From: Sulfurimonas lithotrophica
GTDB lineage: Bacteria; Campylobacterota; Campylobacteria; Campylobacterales; Sulfurimonadaceae
Assembly: GCF_009258225.1 (NCBI RefSeq)
Contig: NZ_CP043617.1
Span: 1,798,001 to 1,862,000, forward strand
Length of the DNA: 64,000 bases
Direction of reading: 5' to 3'
The translations under genes were made by a program, and so were the position numbers. The notes beneath the pieces are model-generated. The model was not told the DNA's origin, did no database searches, and saw only the letters and a list, made by a program, of their open reading frames with translations. Every line of letters starts with the position of its first letter. Position 1 is the first letter of the stretch. Shown one piece after another: positions 13,108 through 52,889 of the stretch.

Positions 13108-14655
13108 TTACTCCCACTCGATTGTTGCAGGTGGCTTACTAGATATATCGTAAACAACTCTGTTAATTCCATCAACCTCATTTATAATACGACGAGAAAT
13201 TCTTTCTAAAAGGTCATGCGGTAAATGAGCAAATGTAGCCGTCATACCGTCAACTGCCTCAACTACACGTACACATACAGTGTTGTCGTATGTACGGTTA
13301 TCTCCCATTACACCTACTGATTTTACGTTTAATAAAACTGCAAATGCCTGCCAAGTTTTAGTATAGTATCCGCTTGCTTTTAATTCATCTAATAAGATAA
13401 CGTCAGCTTCACGTAAAAGGTCAAGGTCAGGCTTGTTAACATCACCCATAATACGGATTGCAAGACCTGGTCCAGGGAACGGATGACGGTTTATCATAGA
13501 TTCTGGAAGTCCTAATTCAAGACCGATTTTACGTACTTCATCTTTAAAAAGTTCACGTAAAGGTTCAATCAGTTCAAAATCCATCCAATCAGGTAATCCT
13601 CCTACATTGTGATGAGACTTAATTACTTCACTCGGACCATTTACAGAGATAGATTCAATAACATCTGGATAAAGTGTACCTTGAGCTAAAAACTTAATAC
13701 CGTCGTGTTTTTTAGCTTCTTTTTCAAACTCTTCTATAAAAGTGTGCCCAATAATTTGACGTTTTTTCTCAGGATCGCTGATTCCGGCTAATTTACCTAA
13801 AAAGTTTTCAGCTGCATCTACAGTTACAAGCGGTGCTTTTAGGTTTAGTTTGAACACTTGTTCAACTTGTTCACGCTCACCTTTGCGTAAAAGTCCGTTA
13901 TCAACAAATACAGGAATAAGCTGATCACCTATTGCTTCGTAAAGCATTGCAGCAACAACTGAAGAATCAACCCCACCGCTTAATCCACAAAGCACTTTTC
14001 CATCACCTACTTTTTCACGGATAATTTTAATCTGCTCTTTTAAAAAGTGCTCCATTTTCCATTTCTCAGTTACTCCACAAATATTCTTTGCAAAATTTCT
14101 GAGCATTAAGTAACCTTCTTCCGAGTGTTGAACTTCCGGGTGATACTGCATAGCATACACGTTTTTTTCCTCATTTGCTATAGCTGCATATGGAGAGTTA
14201 TCTGAAACTGCAATAGGTTTAAAACCCTCAGGTAGTTCATCAACACGATCGGAATGACTCATCCACACAATTCTGCCGTTTTCACAATCTTTAAGTAGAG
14301 GTGAACAATGTTCAGGTTCAACTATATTTAATTCAGCTTTACCGTACTCATGATGATCGCTTCTTATAACACTACCGCCAAAATCAACTGCTATTCTTTG
14401 CATACCGTAACAGATACCAAGAACTGGAATACCCATTTTGTAAACTTCTTGGTCAACTTCATATGCATTTTCACTATATACCGAAGAGGGACCACCGCTA
14501 AGAATGATACCTTTAGGATTTTTTGCTTTTATATCTTTTGCAGATGTATGATAAGGAAGGATTTCACAATATATTTTATCTTCACGTAATCTTCTAGCGA
14601 TAAGTTGAGTATATTGAGAACCGAAATCTAAAACGATGATGCTAACATTTGTCAT
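13108..14655 (-). CDS. guaA: GMP synthase (glutamine-hydrolysing)
   Basis: This 515-residue enzyme aminates XMP to GMP. The glutamine amidotransferase domain (about 1-195) has nucleophile Cys in G-I-C-Y-G-M-Q and the His/Glu pair in Y-H-P-E-V. The ATP pyrophosphatase domain has the P-loop S-G-G-V-D-S-S-V (about 228-235). The C-terminal dimerisation domain ends in the conserved P-P-A-T-I-E-W-E. The length is typical. hemD follows on the same strand. Confidence 0.98.
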
Positions 14656-14731
14656 TTAAATGCCTTTGAAAAAATAAATAATTTTGAAAGGATACAATAA
14701 GTTAGATTAATGTTTTATATGAAGAAGTTTT

Positions 14732-14752
14732 TTGCTCTCAATTTGAGAGCAA
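14732..14752. repeat. Inverted repeat between nhaD and guaA
   Basis: Nine-base arms TTGCTCTCA and TGAGAGCAA around ATT lie 7 bases past the nhaD stop. It may end nhaD transcription, but on the minus strand it is followed by A, not T, so it is not a classical intrinsic terminator. Confidence 0.45.
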
Positions 14753-14759
14753 TTAGATG

Positions 14760-16142
14760 CTAGGCACCAAAGCCTAACATCTCAAACTGTACATACCATA
14801 CGGCAATAGATACTATATAACCTATTAAAATAGTCCATGAGTATTTCATATGTGCACCAAACGTATATACGCCCGGCAATTTACCCATAACACCTACACC
14901 CGCAGCTGAACCAAATGAGATTAAAGATCCGCCCACACCGGCAGTAAGTGTAACTAGCATCCATTGAGAGTGTGCCATTTCAGGTGATGCTTTAAGTACC
15001 GCAGACATAACAGGTACGTTATCAACAATAGCTGATAGGAAACCGACACCGACATTTGACCAAGTAGGGCCTAAAACTGACGGTTCATATACTACAGAGG
15101 CTAAAGCTAACCAACCTATAAAATAGAGTGCACCGACAGCTGCTAAAATACCAAAGAAGAACATAAGAGTGTTGTTCTCAATTTTACTCATAGAAGAGAA
15201 TACATCAAAATGACCTAAACCATGTATTCTTTTAAGTTTATAAGCATATAGTTTAAGTAAAGACAAACCAAACATCATACCCCACATTGCAGGTAAGTGT
15301 AATACTTGATGAGACATCACGGCTGAAAATATTGTAAATACTCCAAGTCCCATAACAACTTTTGCACCAGCCATCATCTCAGGTTTTTTCTCTTTTGTTA
15401 TATCAAACTCAGGGACTGTATCCGGAACAACTTTAGATAGTAAAAATGCAGTTATTACATAACCGATTATAGATGCAGGAAATAAAAATAAAAAGTCAAC
15501 AAATGTACCTTTTCCTGCAGTCCAAGCCATAAGTGTCGTAATATCTCCAAAAGGAGACCATGCACCGCCGGCATTTGCTGCTACAACTATATTTATAGCA
15601 CCTGGTACAAGGAACTCTTTTTTCTCACGCTCAATAGTAATTAGCACAGTTGAAAGGATAAGAGCAGTTGTTAAGTTGTCTGCTATAGGAGAGATAAAAA
15701 ATGCTAAAATACCGGTTACCCAAAATAGTTTTCTATATGTATAACCTTTTGAAACAAGATTGTATTTTAGTCTATCAAACACACCCATATGAATCATAGA
15801 TTCAATATATGTCATTGCTACGAATAAAAAGAAAAATATCTCTGCTATCTCTAAAATAAGGTGCTGTGCTTGAGTATGTACCAAGTTCATATCCAAACCG
15901 TTAATAGAATAATAAAGTGCTATTAACATAAACATAAAAGTACCTATTAATAATGCAGGTTTTGCTTTATCTATATGATAATGCTCCTCCATAGCAACAA
16001 AATAATAACCTATTATAAAAATTGCCAAAGCGGCAATACCGACCCACGTAAATGTAAGATCAGGTATAGCACCACCTGCATCTCCCCCACTAGCCATAGC
16101 TAACGCACTTGTTAAACTAAGCATACTCAAAATCCTTAACAT
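14760..16142 (-). CDS. nhaD: Na+/H+ antiporter, NhaD type
   Basis: This 460-residue inner-membrane protein has about 12 hydrophobic segments and the NhaD/ion-transporter marks: F-I-S-P-I-A-D-N-L-T-T-A-L (about 150), A-N-A-G-G-A-W-S-P-F-G-D (about 190) and, in the second half, A-I-V-D-N-V-P-V-M-S-A-V (about 365) and L-I-S-F-G-S-A-A-G-V (about 405). It exchanges external protons for internal sodium, as needed in marine or brackish life. Its ATG shares one base with the nadB stop (TAATG), so it is co-translated with nadB. Confidence 0.93.
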   Translation of the reverse strand: MLRILSMLSLTSALAMASGGDAGGAIPDLTFTWVGIAALAIFIIGYYFVAMEEHYHIDKAKPALLIGTFMFMLIALYYSINGLDMNLVHTQAQHLILEIAEIFFFLFVAMTYIESMIHMGVFDRLKYNLVSKGYTYRKLFWVTGILAFFISPIADNLTTALILSTVLITIEREKKEFLVPGAINIVVAANAGGAWSPFGDITTLMAWTAGKGTFVDFLFLFPASIIGYVITAFLLSKVVPDTVPEFDITKEKKPEMMAGAKVVMGLGVFTIFSAVMSHQVLHLPAMWGMMFGLSLLKLYAYKLKRIHGLGHFDVFSSMSKIENNTLMFFFGILAAVGALYFIGWLALASVVYEPSVLGPTWSNVGVGFLSAIVDNVPVMSAVLKASPEMAHSQWMLVTLTAGVGGSLISFGSAAGVGVMGKLPGVYTFGAHMKYSWTILIGYIVSIAVWYVQFEMLGFGA

Positions 16143-33100: not shown

Positions 33101-34060
33101 GGATTAACAAGTACTTTTACATACTTATCAAATATAGATGATACAAACATTTCAACTTTTGATATGGGTGCTAGAGTGCAAGTACTTGTAGTTGCACAAA
33201 ACGAAAACAACGGTACTACTCTTAACTTTACAACTGGTGCACCATACTATGAAAATCCTGTTGGACTAAATATTTCTATAGCTGACCTATTACATAATGA
33301 TGCGAATACAACCAGCATTCCAAATGCTAAACTTGGATTTATTGCAGGTAAATATACTGTTGCTTGGAATGAAAACAACACATCTAAAATGCTTAGATTT
33401 AATTTCCCTAGAGAGGTAAATAATGCTATAAATCCTTTTAGAGTTTTGGCAGCTGACTTAAACATTAGTGCTGATTCATATTACACCCAAATTTCACCAT
33501 CATCTGATGCAAATATTACAGGAGAAGACATAGGTACAGGTAATGGTAATGCTACATTTATATATGGAAGAACTAATACTCCAAGAAGAATAATTACAGG
33601 TGATATTGGAAATACATTTATATACTTTGAATCTTATTGTAACGGCGTTGACAGTTTTGGTGTTAACTGTAACAAAAGTTTATTACCTAACGGTGTTGAT
33701 TCAAATTCAACAAATGATCCTAGATGGTATGTAAACGCTTTACACACACCAAGTGACGGGATTGTCGGTACTGTCTCACAAAAAAATACAAATAAAGTCG
33801 ATATTACAGGTATTATTGCAGGAACACCGACACAAGTTGGCTTAGATTATGATGAAAGTAGTGGATACAGTTATAAAGCTACTATGGAAAATAATGCATC
33901 CCGTTGGTTAATATATAACAAATTCGATGCAAATGATGATAAAAATGAATTTGAAGTTGAGTTTGTTAAAAGTAGTCAAGACTGGGGTGGTGTTGACGAT
34001 GCAAACTCAACATCGCAAACAAGCGGTGCAAGCAAAACAAATAGGAGAATTATGTGGTAG
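30197..34060 (+). CDS. MshQ-like large secreted/pilus-associated protein
   Basis: This 1287-residue exported protein has a signal peptide (1-25, ending N-A-A), a PPC-like beta domain (about 30-140), a Calx-beta-like domain (about 150-265, S-I-N-Y-T-T-R-D-G-S-A and D-E-N-F-Y-I-D-L), an L-type lectin-like domain (about 271-550, G-G-W-L-G-L-G-I-D-E-Y-G-N-F-G-N-C), a Cys-rich segment (about 707-790) and a C-terminal region with F-A-I-R-P-D-R-F, a mark of the MshQ/DUF6701 family. Three prepilin-like genes follow with short overlaps, so it is probably a tip or surface component of an MSHA-type pilus. Ligand binding by the lectin-like part is inference. Confidence 0.72.
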   Translation: MNTFNIKLFLFSIIFFFSFVNLNAAPTYDCTSPELVANIDATTMDANASYSENSTASEGYTRYFKFNTDVNGVLSFNIEKNSLKQIINIGTSCGGNEIYGGDSNDLDYTGSMAVTSGTDYYIMVEEQNPGQTLDFILNLEFITPATIGFENALYEILEEVNSPDGSSKLLPIKIILSKPIFQDVSINYTTRDGSAIGNIDYIPYTNQTVTITAGTTEATFTIPIIHDVPIEFDENFYIDLSSISVTDGSVEMGTNSSTEVIILEQVNIPTCYEDDFETELDEYWRTLYSSGGFTPQIVDGRLRLTSGEKNLATAVTKDYEFKSSENMIIVEFEQYAYGGCGSSHDGLGTYGADGIVAVLYDSAVGASPQPGAFGGSMGYAQNDSNDGFEGGWLGLGIDEYGNFGNCNESREGGLVGTSCDSNTPFNAQSYTNYVTIRGDGSGRDGYEYLASSAQLNPRVAVKNTNTAEPKHKYRFTADARDPVHLYITLERDINDGNGYQVIINKFDAKAGANGQSTTPEYVRFAFTSGTGGGCNNHEIDELKVQGICRAYDPNPPEVSATNADIVNDFTTISDYNAGTKFITTKVSNKTETITGVYLDTSGDASAYSSIDSNLKFRIIPYISDSTCSTKNVLYDTDGNPTVISINNGQVTSDIDVVMPSYANKDTRFYITSLDFSKMYISASAEANATIATCMLNSSTTGNLQGLGQCVNDSNQYRLSFGQEAYDRCFASNGSPCDSNNGGRSCGQEQGTGQVLTQEEIEACGYNPLYGSDYGCLMCTLDSGDADCSSDNFAIRPDRFDITISDPNTPAHVPDLMRSGSTYNTTVKAYDYDSSGHTDIQTSNYNQTKSNLTLGDSVVNSADGTATTLSGSASISSESVFNILNGISTDGTDNNVVGMEFDDVGKVTLILKDKNWAKVDLEDNRSVNDPSASLYNNCNEDGSYICGDLNVTFIPHHFKIQDLNVSNNNGLTSTFTYLSNIDDTNISTFDMGARVQVLVVAQNENNGTTLNFTTGAPYYENPVGLNISIADLLHNDANTTSIPNAKLGFIAGKYTVAWNENNTSKMLRFNFPREVNNAINPFRVLAADLNISADSYYTQISPSSDANITGEDIGTGNGNATFIYGRTNTPRRIITGDIGNTFIYFESYCNGVDSFGVNCNKSLLPNGVDSNSTNDPRWYVNALHTPSDGIVGTVSQKNTNKVDITGIIAGTPTQVGLDYDESSGYSYKATMENNASRWLIYNKFDANDDKNEFEVEFVKSSQDWGGVDDANSTSQTSGASKTNRRIMW

Positions 34061-34677
34061 TACCTTACACAAAACGTTTTGCTTTTTCTATGATTGAACT
34101 TATATTTGCAATCGTCATCATAGGTATAACAGTAGCATCAGTCCCTATAATGACAAATGCTGTAGGAGAAGGGGTAAAAAACAATCTTGTTCAAGAAGCG
34201 ATTTTTGCTGCATCGGCTGAGATAAACCAAGTGTTGTCTTACAGATGGGATGAAAATTCTATAAATGAAGCTGTGGATGTAAATGCTACAGGTTTAGCAA
34301 AAGTTATCAACATTGCTGTAGATTGTAATGCTTCAACTAAATTAAGACCGGGTCATATAAACCAAGCTCTTCACAGAAGATGCTTGGATGACACTACAAC
34401 CGGTATATCTGCTTTTGGTTCAGATGCGGGAGATTTAGACGACATTGATGATAATATAGTCACAAATGAAGATTTATTTATTAATGATACATCATCAGAT
34501 GCGTATAAAAATGAATATAAATACGATGTTAACGTAACTGCTTCAAATATAAACGGCCTATACGCAAAAAGAGTAACCGTAACTATATATAATACTTCTG
34601 GAGATACAATTACTAGTTTAAATTCTTATACTTTTAATATAGGAGAAGTAGATTACTATAAGAGGCTACATCAATGA
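34054..34677 (+). CDS. Type IV prepilin-like minor pilin (MSHA-type)
   Basis: This 207-residue protein has a short basic leader and a prepilin signal R-F-A|F-S-M-I-E-L-I-F-A-I-V-I-I-G, with cleavage expected after Ala10 and Glu5 of the mature protein present. The rest is a globular domain rich in Asp and Asn with Cys near 91 and 109. The start overlaps the MshQ-like gene by 7 bases and the stop overlaps the next gene by 4. Ala rather than Gly at the cleavage site appears in all three pilin-like genes here. Confidence 0.85.
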   Translation: MVVPYTKRFAFSMIELIFAIVIIGITVASVPIMTNAVGEGVKNNLVQEAIFAASAEINQVLSYRWDENSINEAVDVNATGLAKVINIAVDCNASTKLRPGHINQALHRRCLDDTTTGISAFGSDAGDLDDIDDNIVTNEDLFINDTSSDAYKNEYKYDVNVTASNINGLYAKRVTVTIYNTSGDTITSLNSYTFNIGEVDYYKRLHQ

Positions 34678-35567
34678 CTAAAAAATCAGCTTTTTCAATG
34701 TTAGAACTCATCTTTGTTATTGTTATCATTGGAATACTCGGCAAGTTTGGTGTTGAATTGTTAGCACAATCTTATCAAAATTTTTTACATACAAAAATAA
34801 ACAACAAACTCCAAGACCAGAGTTCAATAGCGGTAGAGTTCATTGCAAAACGTTTATCTTACCGTATACCTGATTCTGTAATAGCTAAAGAAGATGATAA
34901 TACTACTTTTGTAGGTATACAAAGTATTGACCCAAATAGAAACTACCGTACTTTAGAGTGGGTCCAAAGAGATATAGATGGATGGCGTGGGAACACGAGA
35001 CCTTTTTGGAGCGGTATAGCTGATTTAAACAATTCTGTAGCTGCAGGTGCTGCAATTGATACACCTGAAACTAATACTACGGAAATTAATAACTTAATAC
35101 AAATCCTATCTGATACTAATAGCACGATAAACGATGCAGCCATATACTTTATAGGTTCTAATAATGATGTAAATAGTAGTTACGGTTGGCAAGGTGCAGC
35201 CGTAGCCGGTGTAGGTGCAGCTATGCATCGTATTACTGCTTTTGCACAAAATAGTCTTAATAGTAACTTTGCCGGTGTAGATATTTATGAATACTATCAG
35301 CTTTCTTGGACTGCTAATGCCGTAGCTATTGAGGATGACGGTAAAGGAAATGGTACTTATAACTTAGTTTTTTACTATGATTACCAACCTTGGAATGGCG
35401 AAAGATATACAGACAATGTCGCTAAAAAAAGTACTATTATGGAAAATGTAGCAACTTTTCAGTTTCGAGCAGTTGGTTCTATGATAAAGATTCAGGTATG
35501 TGTTAAAAGCGACTTAATAAATAATGCTGAAGGATATGCACTATGCAAAGAAAAAACCGTGTTTTAG
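34674..35567 (+). CDS. Type IV prepilin-like minor pilin (MSHA-type), MshO-like
   Basis: This 297-residue protein begins M-T-K-K-S-A|F-S-M-L-E-L-I-F-V-I-V-I-I-G, a typical class III signal with an unusually short 6-residue leader and Glu5. The large C-terminal domain (about 60-290) is consistent with an MshO- or PilW-like minor pilin. It overlaps the gene before it by 4 bases and the gene after it by 25 bases. Its stop (TAG at 35565-35567) lies at the left foot of a large hairpin. Confidence 0.83.
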   Translation: MTKKSAFSMLELIFVIVIIGILGKFGVELLAQSYQNFLHTKINNKLQDQSSIAVEFIAKRLSYRIPDSVIAKEDDNTTFVGIQSIDPNRNYRTLEWVQRDIDGWRGNTRPFWSGIADLNNSVAAGAAIDTPETNTTEINNLIQILSDTNSTINDAAIYFIGSNNDVNSSYGWQGAAVAGVGAAMHRITAFAQNSLNSNFAGVDIYEYYQLSWTANAVAIEDDGKGNGTYNLVFYYDYQPWNGERYTDNVAKKSTIMENVATFQFRAVGSMIKIQVCVKSDLINNAEGYALCKEKTVF

Positions 35568-36070
35568 TGCCCCTAAAATCTTCTATAAGGAACATTTTTA
35601 AAAGAAAAATGTTTACTGAAAGAAGAAATAATTTTAGGGGTACCAATAATATTGGCAATCGTTCGGCCTTTGCTATGATAATGGCGGTAGGAGTTATTAT
35701 AGTCGTAGCTACGATTATGCTTTTATCACTAAATACAACTGCTATTACTTCAAAAAGAACAATTGACCAATATTTTTATGAACAAGTAGAACTTCATACA
35801 AAAAGTGCTATCGAGTATGCATTATATGAAATAGCTAGAGACGGTTGTGAAGATAATTTATCTATAAATAATTTAGACGGTCTTTATGATATTAATATTA
35901 GCATGCGATATATAGGTACATCACCCTCAGGTTGTACGGACTATATAGACAATCTATCCACGGAGGAACAAAACGGTTCAGTACTTATGGATGTGACGGT
36001 TACTGTACCTACAGGTGTCACGGGAGCAGAACCTATAAGATTTTTCAGAAGAACCATACAAAAACTATGA
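35543..36070 (+). CDS. PilX/MshP-like minor pilin protein with unusually long leader
   Basis: This 175-residue protein has a hydrophobic helix A-F-A-M-I-M-A-V-G-V-I-I-V-V-A-T-I-M-L-L (about 42-62) preceded by a 42-residue basic leader, then a globular domain with Cys at about 97 and 130. AAGGA lies eight bases before the ATG at 35543, which supports this start. An in-frame ATG at 35609 would give a 20-residue leader but has no good ribosome-binding site and lies inside a hairpin stem. Residues 7-40 coincide with a palindromic segment that looks inserted. PilX-type proteins lack the Glu5 residue, as here. Confidence 0.72.
   Translation: MQRKNRVLVPLKSSIRNIFKRKMFTERRNNFRGTNNIGNRSAFAMIMAVGVIIVVATIMLLSLNTTAITSKRTIDQYFYEQVELHTKSAIEYALYEIARDGCEDNLSINNLDGLYDINISMRYIGTSPSGCTDYIDNLSTEEQNGSVLMDVTVTVPTGVTGAEPIRFFRRTIQKL
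35567..35643 (+). repeat. 77-nt palindrome inside the PilX-like leader
   Basis: Arms 35567-35579 and 35631-35643 pair over 13 bp (one G-U). CTTCT (35580-35584) pairs with AGAAG (35621-35625). An inner perfect 9-bp stem AACATTTTT (35591-35599) / AAAAATGTT (35605-35613) closes a 5-base loop. The alternative start ATG at 35609 lies in the inner stem. The segment 35561-35662 is bounded by AACCGT and AATCGT. Confidence 0.85.
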
Positions 36071-36076
36071 TATAAT
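36068..36076 (+). promoter_or_regulatory. Probable hpf promoter, extended -10
   Basis: TG-A-TATAAT directly overlaps the stop of the PilX-like gene and lies about 33 bases before hpf. It is identical in core to the elements before der and trpS. Confidence 0.65.
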
Positions 36077-36108
36077 TCGCGACTTAAAAACTTTAAAAGG
36101 ATATATTT

Positions 36109-36642
36109 ATGAATATCTCCCTAACAGGTAGACATTTAGAATTAACTGATGCTATAAAAACCCATATGACCTCTTCAATAGAGACTTTAAATAAGTACAA
36201 TATGGGTATTACAAGTGTAAATGTTATTGCATCTGCACAAACAAAAAAGGGTAAAGAACACTCAATGGTTGAGTTTGTTATCACGATGGCTGGTAAAAAC
36301 TCCGTAATTATTAAACAAAACGATGATGACTTATATGCTGCGATAGATATTGCAATTGAGCGTGCTCAAAAAGCACTTCGTCGTATGCATGATAAAGAAG
36401 TTGATCATCAAAAAGTAGGTTTAAATACAATCAAATCTGAAGATGTAGATGTAAAAGAAACAGCAGAAGCTATGGAAGATGAGATTGTTCCTGTTGAGCT
36501 TGATTTATATAAACCTCGTGAAGTTGAGGATGTATTAAACGACTTAAAAGAGAGCAATAAGATGTTTGAAATCTTTTTAGACAATGAAGATAAAACTCGC
36601 GTTCTTTACAAAAGAAACGACGGTAAATTTGGACTATATTAA
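36109..36642 (+). CDS. hpf: Ribosome hibernation promoting factor, long form
   Basis: This 177-residue protein has the N-terminal HPF/RaiA fold (1-100, M-N-I-S-L-T-G-R-H-L-E-L-T-D-A-I and A-I-D-I-A-I-E-R-A-Q-K-A-L-R-R), a linker, and the C-terminal dimerisation domain (about 122-177, F-L-D-N-E-D-K-T-R-V-L-Y-K-R-N-D-G-K-F-G-L). Long HPF alone dimerises 70S ribosomes into 100S in stationary phase. A short paralogue lies at 52913-53242. AAGGATAT precedes the ATG. Confidence 0.93.
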   Translation: MNISLTGRHLELTDAIKTHMTSSIETLNKYNMGITSVNVIASAQTKKGKEHSMVEFVITMAGKNSVIIKQNDDDLYAAIDIAIERAQKALRRMHDKEVDHQKVGLNTIKSEDVDVKETAEAMEDEIVPVELDLYKPREVEDVLNDLKESNKMFEIFLDNEDKTRVLYKRNDGKFGLY

Positions 36643-36650
36643 TTAGTCCC

Positions 36651-36674
36651 GTAAATGGAAATAATTCCATTTAC
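36651..36674 (+). terminator. Possible hpf terminator hairpin
   Basis: A perfect 10-bp inverted repeat GTAAATGGAA-ATAA-TTCCATTTAC lies 8 bases after the hpf stop. No T-tract follows on the plus strand, so termination would be weak or factor-dependent. Confidence 0.45.
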
Positions 36675-36714
36675 TCCGCTAGCCGCTGAGGCACTAAAGC
36701 TTTGAAACAAAGTT

Positions 36715-50991: not shown

Positions 50992-52470
50992 ATGAAAAAA
51001 ATTGCAATTATAGGTCGTCCCAATGTCGGAAAAAGCTCACTTTTTAACCGTTTGGTAAAAAAAAGAGACGCTATAACATCAGATATGGCAGGGACTACTC
51101 GTGACGTAAAAAGACGTGAAGTAGTGATAAACAATAAACGTGCTTTGTTACTTGATACCGGTGGATTAGACAAGGGTTGTGAGCTATATGACAAAATAAA
51201 AGATATGTCGCTAAAAGCTGCCCATAAAGCAGACATAATTCTTTATATGGTGGACGGAAAAGGCTTACCTGAAGATGAAGATAAAAAACTTTTTTATGAA
51301 CTTCAAACTATGGGTAAAGATATAGCCTTGGTTGTAAACAAAATTGATAACGACAAAATGAAAGACAAACTTTGGGATTTTTACGAGTTTGGATGCGATG
51401 CTATTTTTGGAATATCTGTCTCACATAACCGCGGTACTGTTAATCTTTTAGAATGGATATATAACCACATTCCGGACTCGGATATTATAGACGAAGAAGC
51501 CGAAGAAATAATAAGCGAACCTGAAATTCCAGAATATGAAAACGAACTTAACGATGAAGAGTTTTTTGCTCAGTTTGAAGATGAAGAGGACGGTTACTTT
51601 TACACGGATGAAGAAGAAGTAGAAGATGACTCCATTTTTGCTCAAAACGATAAAATAAAAGAGTTTGACGAAAATGATATAAACCATATAAAAATAGCAA
51701 TAATCGGTCGTACCAATGTTGGTAAAAGTTCACTCTTAAATGCACTTTTAGGTGAAGAACGCTCTGTTGTAAGTGATGTTAGCGGTACTACAATCGATCC
51801 TATTGATGAGAGTATTGATTACAAGGGTAAACAACTTACATTTGTAGATACAGCAGGTCTTAGACGTCGCGGAAAGATTGACGGTATTGAGAGATATGCC
51901 CTGATGCGTACCAAAGAGATGCTTGAGAATGCAAATATGGCTTTGGTTGTATTAGATGCAAGTGAGCCGTTTTTAGACTTAGATGAAAAGATAGCAGGCT
52001 TGGTCGATCAAAACAGACTTGCTTGTATCATCGTTTTAAACAAATGGGATATAGCCGATAAAAATGAGTTTGAAAGAATTAAAAACGAAGTAAGAGACAG
52101 ATTTAAATTTTTAGCCTATGCACCTATAATCACGTTATCTGCAAATACGCATCAGCGTGTAGATAAACTTCATGATATGATCTTAAAAATCAATGAAAAC
52201 TATTCACAAAGAATTACTACTTCACAACTAAATGCAGTTATAGATAAAGCACAGCAACGCCATCAGTTACCGACTATGCACGGTCAGGTAATACGCATCT
52301 ACTATACTACGCAGTATGAAACACGCCCACCGAAGATTGCCATAGTTATGAACAAACCAAAGGGGCTTCACTTCACATATAGAAGATATCTGACAAATAA
52401 GTTAAGAGAAGCTTTTGATTTTACGGGAACACCGTTATTGTTTAAGGCTAAGAAGCGTGGTGAACGCTAG
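50992..52470 (+). CDS. der: Ribosome-assembly GTPase Der (EngA)
   Basis: This 492-residue protein has two tandem GTPase domains: G-R-P-N-V-G-K-S-S (7-15) with N-K-I-D, and G-R-T-N-V-G-K-S-S (about 237-245) with N-K-W-D, then the KH-like C-terminal domain (about 390-492). The linker (about 165-228) is a very acidic Glu/Asp-rich stretch, longer than in E. coli. Der acts in 50S subunit assembly. Its stop overlaps the convergent hemJ gene by 4 bases. Confidence 0.97.
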   Translation: MKKIAIIGRPNVGKSSLFNRLVKKRDAITSDMAGTTRDVKRREVVINNKRALLLDTGGLDKGCELYDKIKDMSLKAAHKADIILYMVDGKGLPEDEDKKLFYELQTMGKDIALVVNKIDNDKMKDKLWDFYEFGCDAIFGISVSHNRGTVNLLEWIYNHIPDSDIIDEEAEEIISEPEIPEYENELNDEEFFAQFEDEEDGYFYTDEEEVEDDSIFAQNDKIKEFDENDINHIKIAIIGRTNVGKSSLLNALLGEERSVVSDVSGTTIDPIDESIDYKGKQLTFVDTAGLRRRGKIDGIERYALMRTKEMLENANMALVVLDASEPFLDLDEKIAGLVDQNRLACIIVLNKWDIADKNEFERIKNEVRDRFKFLAYAPIITLSANTHQRVDKLHDMILKINENYSQRITTSQLNAVIDKAQQRHQLPTMHGQVIRIYYTTQYETRPPKIAIVMNKPKGLHFTYRRYLTNKLREAFDFTGTPLLFKAKKRGER

Positions 52471-52889
52471 AATGGCTTGAACACCACTAACCAAACAACT
52501 ATAAGAAGTATTAGAGTCGGCACTTCGTTATAAGCACGGAAAAATTTTCCGCTTTTATCACACTTATCTTCCAAAAATTGTTTTCTGTAATAACCCAATG
52601 AAAAGAAATAAGCCATAAGCAAAACAACAAGCGTTATTTTTACGTGTAGCCAGGCATTACCCTTAAATCCGATTTCAAATGCCAAATAAAAACCACTTAA
52701 AATCGTCCCCCACATAGCAGGGACTCCGATATATTTATATATCTTCATCTCCATAACTTTTACAACTTCGCAGAAACCTTTGTTTTCAATATTTTCCGCG
52801 TGGTAAACAAAAAGTCTCGGCATGTAAAATAAAACTGCAAACCAAGAAATCAACGATAATAAGTGGAACCACAATACCCAACTGTACAC
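52467..52889 (-). CDS. hemJ: Protoporphyrinogen oxidase HemJ
   Basis: This 140-residue protein has four transmembrane helices and the HemJ pattern: W-F-H-L-L-S-L-I-S-W-F-A-V-L-F-Y-M-P-R-L-F-V-Y-H (about 7-30, with the conserved His) and W-L-H-V-K-I-T-L-V (about 79-87, with the conserved His/Lys). HemJ oxidises protoporphyrinogen IX at the inner membrane, using the quinone pool. hemB and hemD are also in this window but not adjacent. Confidence 0.9.
   Translation of the reverse strand: MYSWVLWFHLLSLISWFAVLFYMPRLFVYHAENIENKGFCEVVKVMEMKIYKYIGVPAMWGTILSGFYLAFEIGFKGNAWLHVKITLVVLLMAYFFSLGYYRKQFLEDKCDKSGKFFRAYNEVPTLILLIVVWLVVFKPF

Follow-up and report, generated by a model that had tools for sequence, protein, structure and literature searches.

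Within the window, the 64,000-nucleotide stretch of Sulfurimonas lithotrophica DNA analysed here (genome of 2.4 Mb), three pilin-like ORFs follow each other on the forward strand (Table 1). The last of them begins with an ATG at 35543, overlapping the end of the ORF upstream, and its leader reads MQRKNRVL, then a palindromic element, then NNIGNR, followed by SAFAMIMA. Nothing exceeded the cut-off for this ORF in Pfam or NCBIfam and its PilX/GspK-like name therefore rests on context. Genomes and loci used for comparison are numbered with G and L, respectively; G000 is the genome carrying the window and forms a close pair with G015. In G141, the apparent orthologue of the first of the three ORFs carries a reversed copy of the element in its leader.

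Table 1. Features of the pilin operon, the element and the sites of the window compared with G015
Feature	Positions in the window	Strand	Basis
Pilin-like ORF, normal short leader	34054..34677	+	N_methyl, TIGR02532 slightly below cut-off
Upstream pilin-like ORF, TAG stop (35565-35567) adjoins element	34674..35567	+	TIGR02532 over cut-off
Minor-pilin-like ORF (PilX/GspK-like from operon place and AFAMI motif)	35543..36070	+	ORF list, orthologues
Palindromic repeat copy, model R1 positions 1-78	35567..35644	+	cmsearch 85.6 bits, E 1.6e-17, whole genome; fold z -6.8
Extra 30 codons, in frame, compared with the leader of G002, which lacks the element	35567..35656	+	Orthologue comparison
Residual bases 3' of element, within small palindrome CCAATAATATTGG (35643-35655)	35645..35656	+	By eye
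Gap after HPF gene: copy in G015, short hairpin only in window	36643..36714	.	By eye
Copy in G015, short terminator-like hairpin in window	14516..14964	+	Hairpin folded
164 extra nt in G015, including a copy, directly at TAG stop; absent in window	52342..52689	-	

The nested palindrome of about 77 nt described in the first-pass annotation is real and belongs to a repeat family. Positions 35567-35643 form a nested hairpin composed of an outer stem GTGCCCCTAAAAT/ATTTTAGGGGTAC with one G-U pair and an inner stem GGAACATTTTT/AAAAATGTTT with an A bulge. The fold of segment 35563-35650 had an MFE of -31.0 kcal/mol, equalled by none of 200 shuffles, and a longer fold (35540-35670) gave a z of -4.8, with 1 of 200 shuffles as good. 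The overlap with the upstream stop was also confirmed, since the first base of the element (35567) is the last base of the TAG. The limits of the insert had to be revised. Judged against G002, the closest leader without the element (MQRKNRILNRSGFAMI), it measures 90 nt, or 30 codons, instead of the 102 bp and 34 codons reported before. The motifs AACCGT and AATCGT, proposed as its bounds, are not a target duplication, as AACCGT occurs two times at a distance of 12 nt in G002, where the element is missing. Nor would removal of the element displace the stop of the upstream gene, because the 30 best-matching loci share the end ..KEKT[IV][FY]*, whether or not the insert is present. The small palindrome CCAATAATATTGG is separate from the element, which it adjoins, and is missing from the G002 leader.

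No Rfam model matched at E <= 1 in window positions 35000-36200 or in five other loci, and BLAST of the segment against its own genome at E <= 0.001 returned the self match only. In a genus-wide BLAST search of 135 genomes, related leader DNA was found in G015, G156 and G141, and DNA of the inner hairpin at unrelated loci; at the threshold used (E <= 10) chance matches occurred in all 135 genomes and were excluded from counting. The matched loci, when read, formed one family with a common shape. A covariance model was then built from 14 aligned copies, the window copy among them, with a structure set by hand. With 35 candidates scored per genome, 21 of 135 Sulfurimonas genomes were positive at E <= 0.01. 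Six genomes, all Sulfurimonas, were positive in an order-wide search of 398 genomes from 87 genera, where 11 candidates were scored in each, making absence from other genera a weaker result than absence within the genus. A rescan with 132 candidates returned the identical 21 carriers and none of 15 chosen non-carriers. The segment in question is a diverged member of a dispersed, REP-like family of palindromic repeats which, within the genomes searched, is limited to some Sulfurimonas.

Carriers harbor 1 to 11 copies each; the further copies sought after the first annotation exist both in the window genome (at least six) and in another 20 Sulfurimonas genomes. After removal of 7 opposite-strand twins, the 112 rows from the rescanned loci left 105 copies. 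This number is a lower bound; it includes partial tandem copies as well as two pairs at contig ends that are nearly duplicates (L194/L195, 73/74 bases alike, and L151/L152, 73/77). Weak or late copies (L291-L294), none of them spanned by a long ORF, are outside the 105, as is the pilX leader of G052 (L014), which by eye seems to be an internally deleted copy. An early search with the motif CCCCTAAAATCTTC allowing 2 mismatches was discarded, having given 14 + 13 matches compared to 17 + 22 in the reversed control. Searches for a phage or plasmid origin gave no match to one exact pattern in viral contigs and no match at E <= 0.01 in plasmids and phages.

Strong covariation supports the folding of the element into a single long, bulged hairpin, whether in RNA or in single-stranded DNA. 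RNAalifold predicted 29 pairs from 14 copies, 14 of them with two-sided compensatory change. Among the five forward copies in pilX leaders, 11 of 30 pairs were changed on both sides (0/500 shuffles as good), and 94% of the cells of this alignment (5 genomes) could pair, compared to 41-53% after sliding. When 61 copies were aligned by sequence alone, the 13 column pairs with the strongest signal were all stem pairs. G-T cells (273) outnumbered A-C cells (40) in the paired columns and were found for the most part at five fixed wobble positions; one strand is therefore preferred for folding. Part of the covariation could come from palindrome-correcting mutation instead of selection.

Surviving copies are also well conserved between G000 and G015. 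Three intact copies common to this pair were identical at 75/78, 75/77 and 77/77 positions and exceeded their flanks (p 3e-4 to 2e-3) in a test which covers surviving copies, two G015 copies half decayed in G000 standing outside it. Two more copy pairs, picked for high identity, were better conserved than their flanks as well. In the pilX insert, 87 of 90 bases were equal compared to 330 of 414 in the remaining gene (Fisher p 2e-5). The 3 differing bases, all non-synonymous (84/414 bases differ in the rest of the gene), point to constraint at the nucleotide level. The start region beside the insert was conserved too (24/24).

We then considered where the copies lie. In 35 of the 105, the model match starts on the final base of a stop codon belonging to an upstream ORF (at least 80 aa), and in 3 further copies it starts one base later; 70 of the 105 do not have a stop in the exact register. 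Counting both positions, 31 of 80 copies were adjacent to a stop against 10.0 expected under uniform placement (0 of 20000 simulations). Reducing each gene-end site to a single copy left 11 adjacent copies among 40, with 3.6 expected (p 5e-5). This null rests on crude ORF calls. The stop of an opposing gene adjoined 8 of the 65 copies that have such a gene. Ninety-four copies were not spanned by a called ORF, including 5 pilin-leader copies overlooked by the ORF caller: 60 were flanked by convergent, 28 by co-directional and 2 by divergent genes, while 4 had no neighbour. Since most copies are intergenic and often at gene ends, the family is REP-like in its main behaviour. Sharing between genomes was seen at 22 gene-end sites (21 clusters and the L124/L127 pilin site). 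A T run behind the stem was not general in the copies read by eye, and short hairpins replace the element in some relatives. At least five copies (L154, L159, L162, L171 and L173) lie, by eye, inside the hairpin loop of another copy. Partial tandem copies directly follow the right end of the element at L142, L192, L145, L146, L194, L165, L150 and L174; judged by eye they have no counterpart of its first bases, which may reflect the mode of copying.

Copies within genes were collected by listing ORFs (stop to stop, at least 90 codons) that contain a copy followed by 40 or more further codons. Sixteen of the 22 ORFs obtained were pilin-like, with the element always ahead of the cleavage/methylation motif, in either orientation. 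The other six (67-119 aa from the first start codon) matched nothing in Pfam at E <= 0.01 and look spurious in our judgement. Four pilin genes are concerned. The pilX-like gene carries forward copies in the window, L129, L168 and L144 (genomes G000, G015, G156 and G122), reverse copies in L166 and L193 (G026 and G134) and both in L177 (G141), all at the same site. In the '..MRGNSS' pilin, copies are reverse in L124, L127 and L152 and forward in L203. They are reverse in the 'KSYASLN' pilin (L151, open at the contig end, L152 and L178) and in the 'AFSLIELIFAI' pilin (L177). N_methyl or TIGR02532 exceeded the cut-off for L124, both L152 ORFs, L203 and L178, whereas L177:1192 cleared TIGR02532 just narrowly. 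Representatives of three of the four genes thus pass one of these models; the two pilX-like ORFs tested matched neither. With two of the four genes hit in both orientations, at least six insertions are required if no flipping in place occurred.

By reading, the consensus has one open frame per strand, which would explain the repeated use of the same frame, and it encodes a hydrophilic, basic peptide. Reversed copies encode STLGSILSSREHFSTKNIPYAQAKR or similar peptides, whose basic residues are mostly at the end, beside AF or GF. The window copy fits both regularities, stop-codon register and position in a pilin leader. Three copies occupy a single pilin operon at L177: a pair in opposite orientations in one leader and a third in the leader of the neighbouring pilin. 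At L293 (G134, about 1201-1272), a weak reversed copy precedes the pilin motif AFTLLEVM and seems, by eye, to provide that pilin with its ribosome-binding site and start codon (..MKNIPWSQSKRSAFTLLEVM).

Comparison of relatives indicated both inheritance and change. Copies at the same site in different species had a mean identity of 0.71 (72 pairs) compared to 0.63 for other pairs, suggesting that inheritance accounts for much of the sharing and that insertion events are fewer than copies. Five G015 sites were compared base by base with G000, a sixth being matched in part: at one the copy was absent from G000, at one a short hairpin was present, at one the gene end was changed (by eye, the G015 copy alters the last residues of the gene), and at two the copy was half decayed. 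The absent copy belongs to the stretch of 164 nt listed in Table 1, which has TAGC at both ends and could reflect either a target duplication or a microhomology deletion. The ends of the element are palindromic, and the remaining sites that were compared showed no clear target duplication. At the end of the SppA gene, the element occurs in G112, G173 and G156, short post-stop hairpins in G025 (folded), G102 and G161 (both by eye), and collapsed remnants, by eye, in G106 and G141. In a tree of HPF from 30 genomes, the 12 carriers cluster, yet in more than one clade. No clean empty site was found in the HPF gap, because gaps vary too much between species. Five copies (L158-L162) are present in G112, a genome 57% complete, and none were found in G025, its near relative by HPF; gain or loss may hence be fast. 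Mobilisation by RAYT (Y1) transposases of the present genomes was considered and rejected: Y1 was not enriched in carriers (10/21, compared to 62/114 in the others) and none was found in the window genome. A mobilising enzyme may nevertheless have acted in the past, despite the missing link with Y1.

Taken together, these results make it probable that we are dealing with a dispersed REP-like repeat whose copies provide 3'-end hairpins behind stop codons and are tolerated in pilin leaders. The likeliest history would be that of a mobile palindrome, now chiefly inherited and decaying, which settled or survived behind stops. Retention at these places suggests a 3'-end function, and copies behind stops would probably act as 3'-end hairpins or assume that role; protection of the mRNA end, termination or a brake on the terminating ribosome are candidate roles. 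In overlapping pilin operons the base after the stop is already in the next gene, so that a copy landing there would be translated. Such an insert may be tolerated because it falls inside a prepilin leader, with an open frame, a hydrophilic basic peptide and a leader that is cut away: prepilin peptidase would remove the element peptide along with the leader before assembly. A further-reaching proposal, to which we give somewhat less than even weight, is that a segment discarded by the host is the safe genic home of a mobile palindrome, with prepilin peptidase providing excision at the protein level and the preference for stop codons leading the element there. The element would then sometimes become the leader itself, supplying basic residues and, in L293, apparently the ribosome-binding site and start.

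Could the element instead be a selfish coding palindrome of the Rickettsia type, living mainly by in-frame insertion into protein genes, as the first annotation suggested? An in-frame inserted palindrome is indeed present, several pilin genes are affected, and, among 89 non-coding copies, 61 have the forward frame open, where shuffles average 39.5. This excess may stem from shared ancestry, and the reverse frame shows none (55/89 against 53.9). Moreover, just 16 of the 105 copies are spanned by credible ORFs, all in pilin-like leaders, and 60 of the 94 others lie between convergent genes; the coding part of that suggestion does not extend to the family, most copies being non-coding, intergenic and often at gene ends. 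We regard such a way of life as improbable. Still less likely is an RNA switch or translational regulator particular to this pilin gene. The strong hairpin at the gene start and the nucleotide-level conservation of the insert would fit it, but 27 of the 30 orthologous loci lack a copy detected by the model at the pilX site and the element is found at unrelated genes. The switch had been thought to act through an in-frame ATG at 35609, for which there is little support because the start at 35543 is conserved (ATGCAAAGAAAAAAC, unchanged in all 30 orthologous loci and in most of them preceded, by eye, by a GGA/GGAG-type site), while no such site is visible ahead of 35609.

A non-mobile origin deserves more weight, although we also consider it unlikely: the element would be an ancient, vertically inherited 3'-end RNA element, a terminator or stabiliser, lost in most lineages. 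The gene-end sites common to several genomes, the conservation of surviving copies, the compensatory changes at the pilX site and the simple hairpin found in G000 and G025 where relatives carry the element all agree with it. Against it, the same site is occupied in opposite orientations, copies are nested in loops or arranged in tandem, and one subfamily is nested at several loci of G156 and also in G151 and G112 (by eye). One copy-bearing stretch is present in G015 alone of the close pair, an arrangement that loss in G000 could also explain. Orthologous leaders exist with the element, without it and with it reversed; thus neither of the findings which the first-pass annotation had set against its own reading, identical leaders in all orthologues and a lack of other copies, was obtained.

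We file the family as new, untagged and REP/RPE-like. As described in the main text of PMC3733652, GTAG- and CGTC-tagged REPs are hairpin repeats near gene 3' ends, mostly between convergent or co-directional genes, with frequent G-T pairs, dimers and some intragenic copies, and GTAG REPs often provide the stop codon of the flanking ORF; that text makes no mention of pilin, pilus or leader. The Sulfurimonas repeat is likewise a short, dispersed, extragenic palindrome near 3' ends. In contrast to REPs of 20-40 nt, it measures about 77 nt, has few copies per genome, no RAYT link and coding copies confined to pilin-like leaders, and its right end (GTAC in 48, GTAG in 15 and CGTC in none of 105 copies) differs from that of tagged REPs. 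RPEs, of about 150 bp, are found in frame in unrelated metabolic genes, according to a review (PMC10969869). Our repeat shares with them a palindromic, in-frame and predicted peptide-encoding nature, but is mostly extragenic, its genic copies being in leaders alone and in no range of unrelated genes. It resembles MITEs as a small palindromic repeat without a gene of its own, with nested and tandem copies, but a target duplication has not been established for it, and no transposase that would match it was found. E. coli REPs located up to 15 nt from stops are reported to stall ribosomes (Liang 2015, as cited in PMC12306157); here too a hairpin is placed directly behind the stop. Titles and abstract openings returned by a literature search held no account of this family or of elements in pilin leaders; a generic REP count is given for S. 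gotlandica in one paper.

If the proposed history is true, repeats can inhabit genes harmlessly, within a segment discarded by proteolysis. The exact stop-codon register makes the site choice of REP-like elements, and their action at these sites, open to testing. Several Sulfurimonas pilin leaders consist of repeat DNA, which bears on the annotation of starts and cleavage sites. Finally, a palindromic-looking sequence (..GCGACGCATTTTTAGCGTTGC..) lies beside both copies in the left flanks of L128 and L133 of G015 and may represent a second repeat family.
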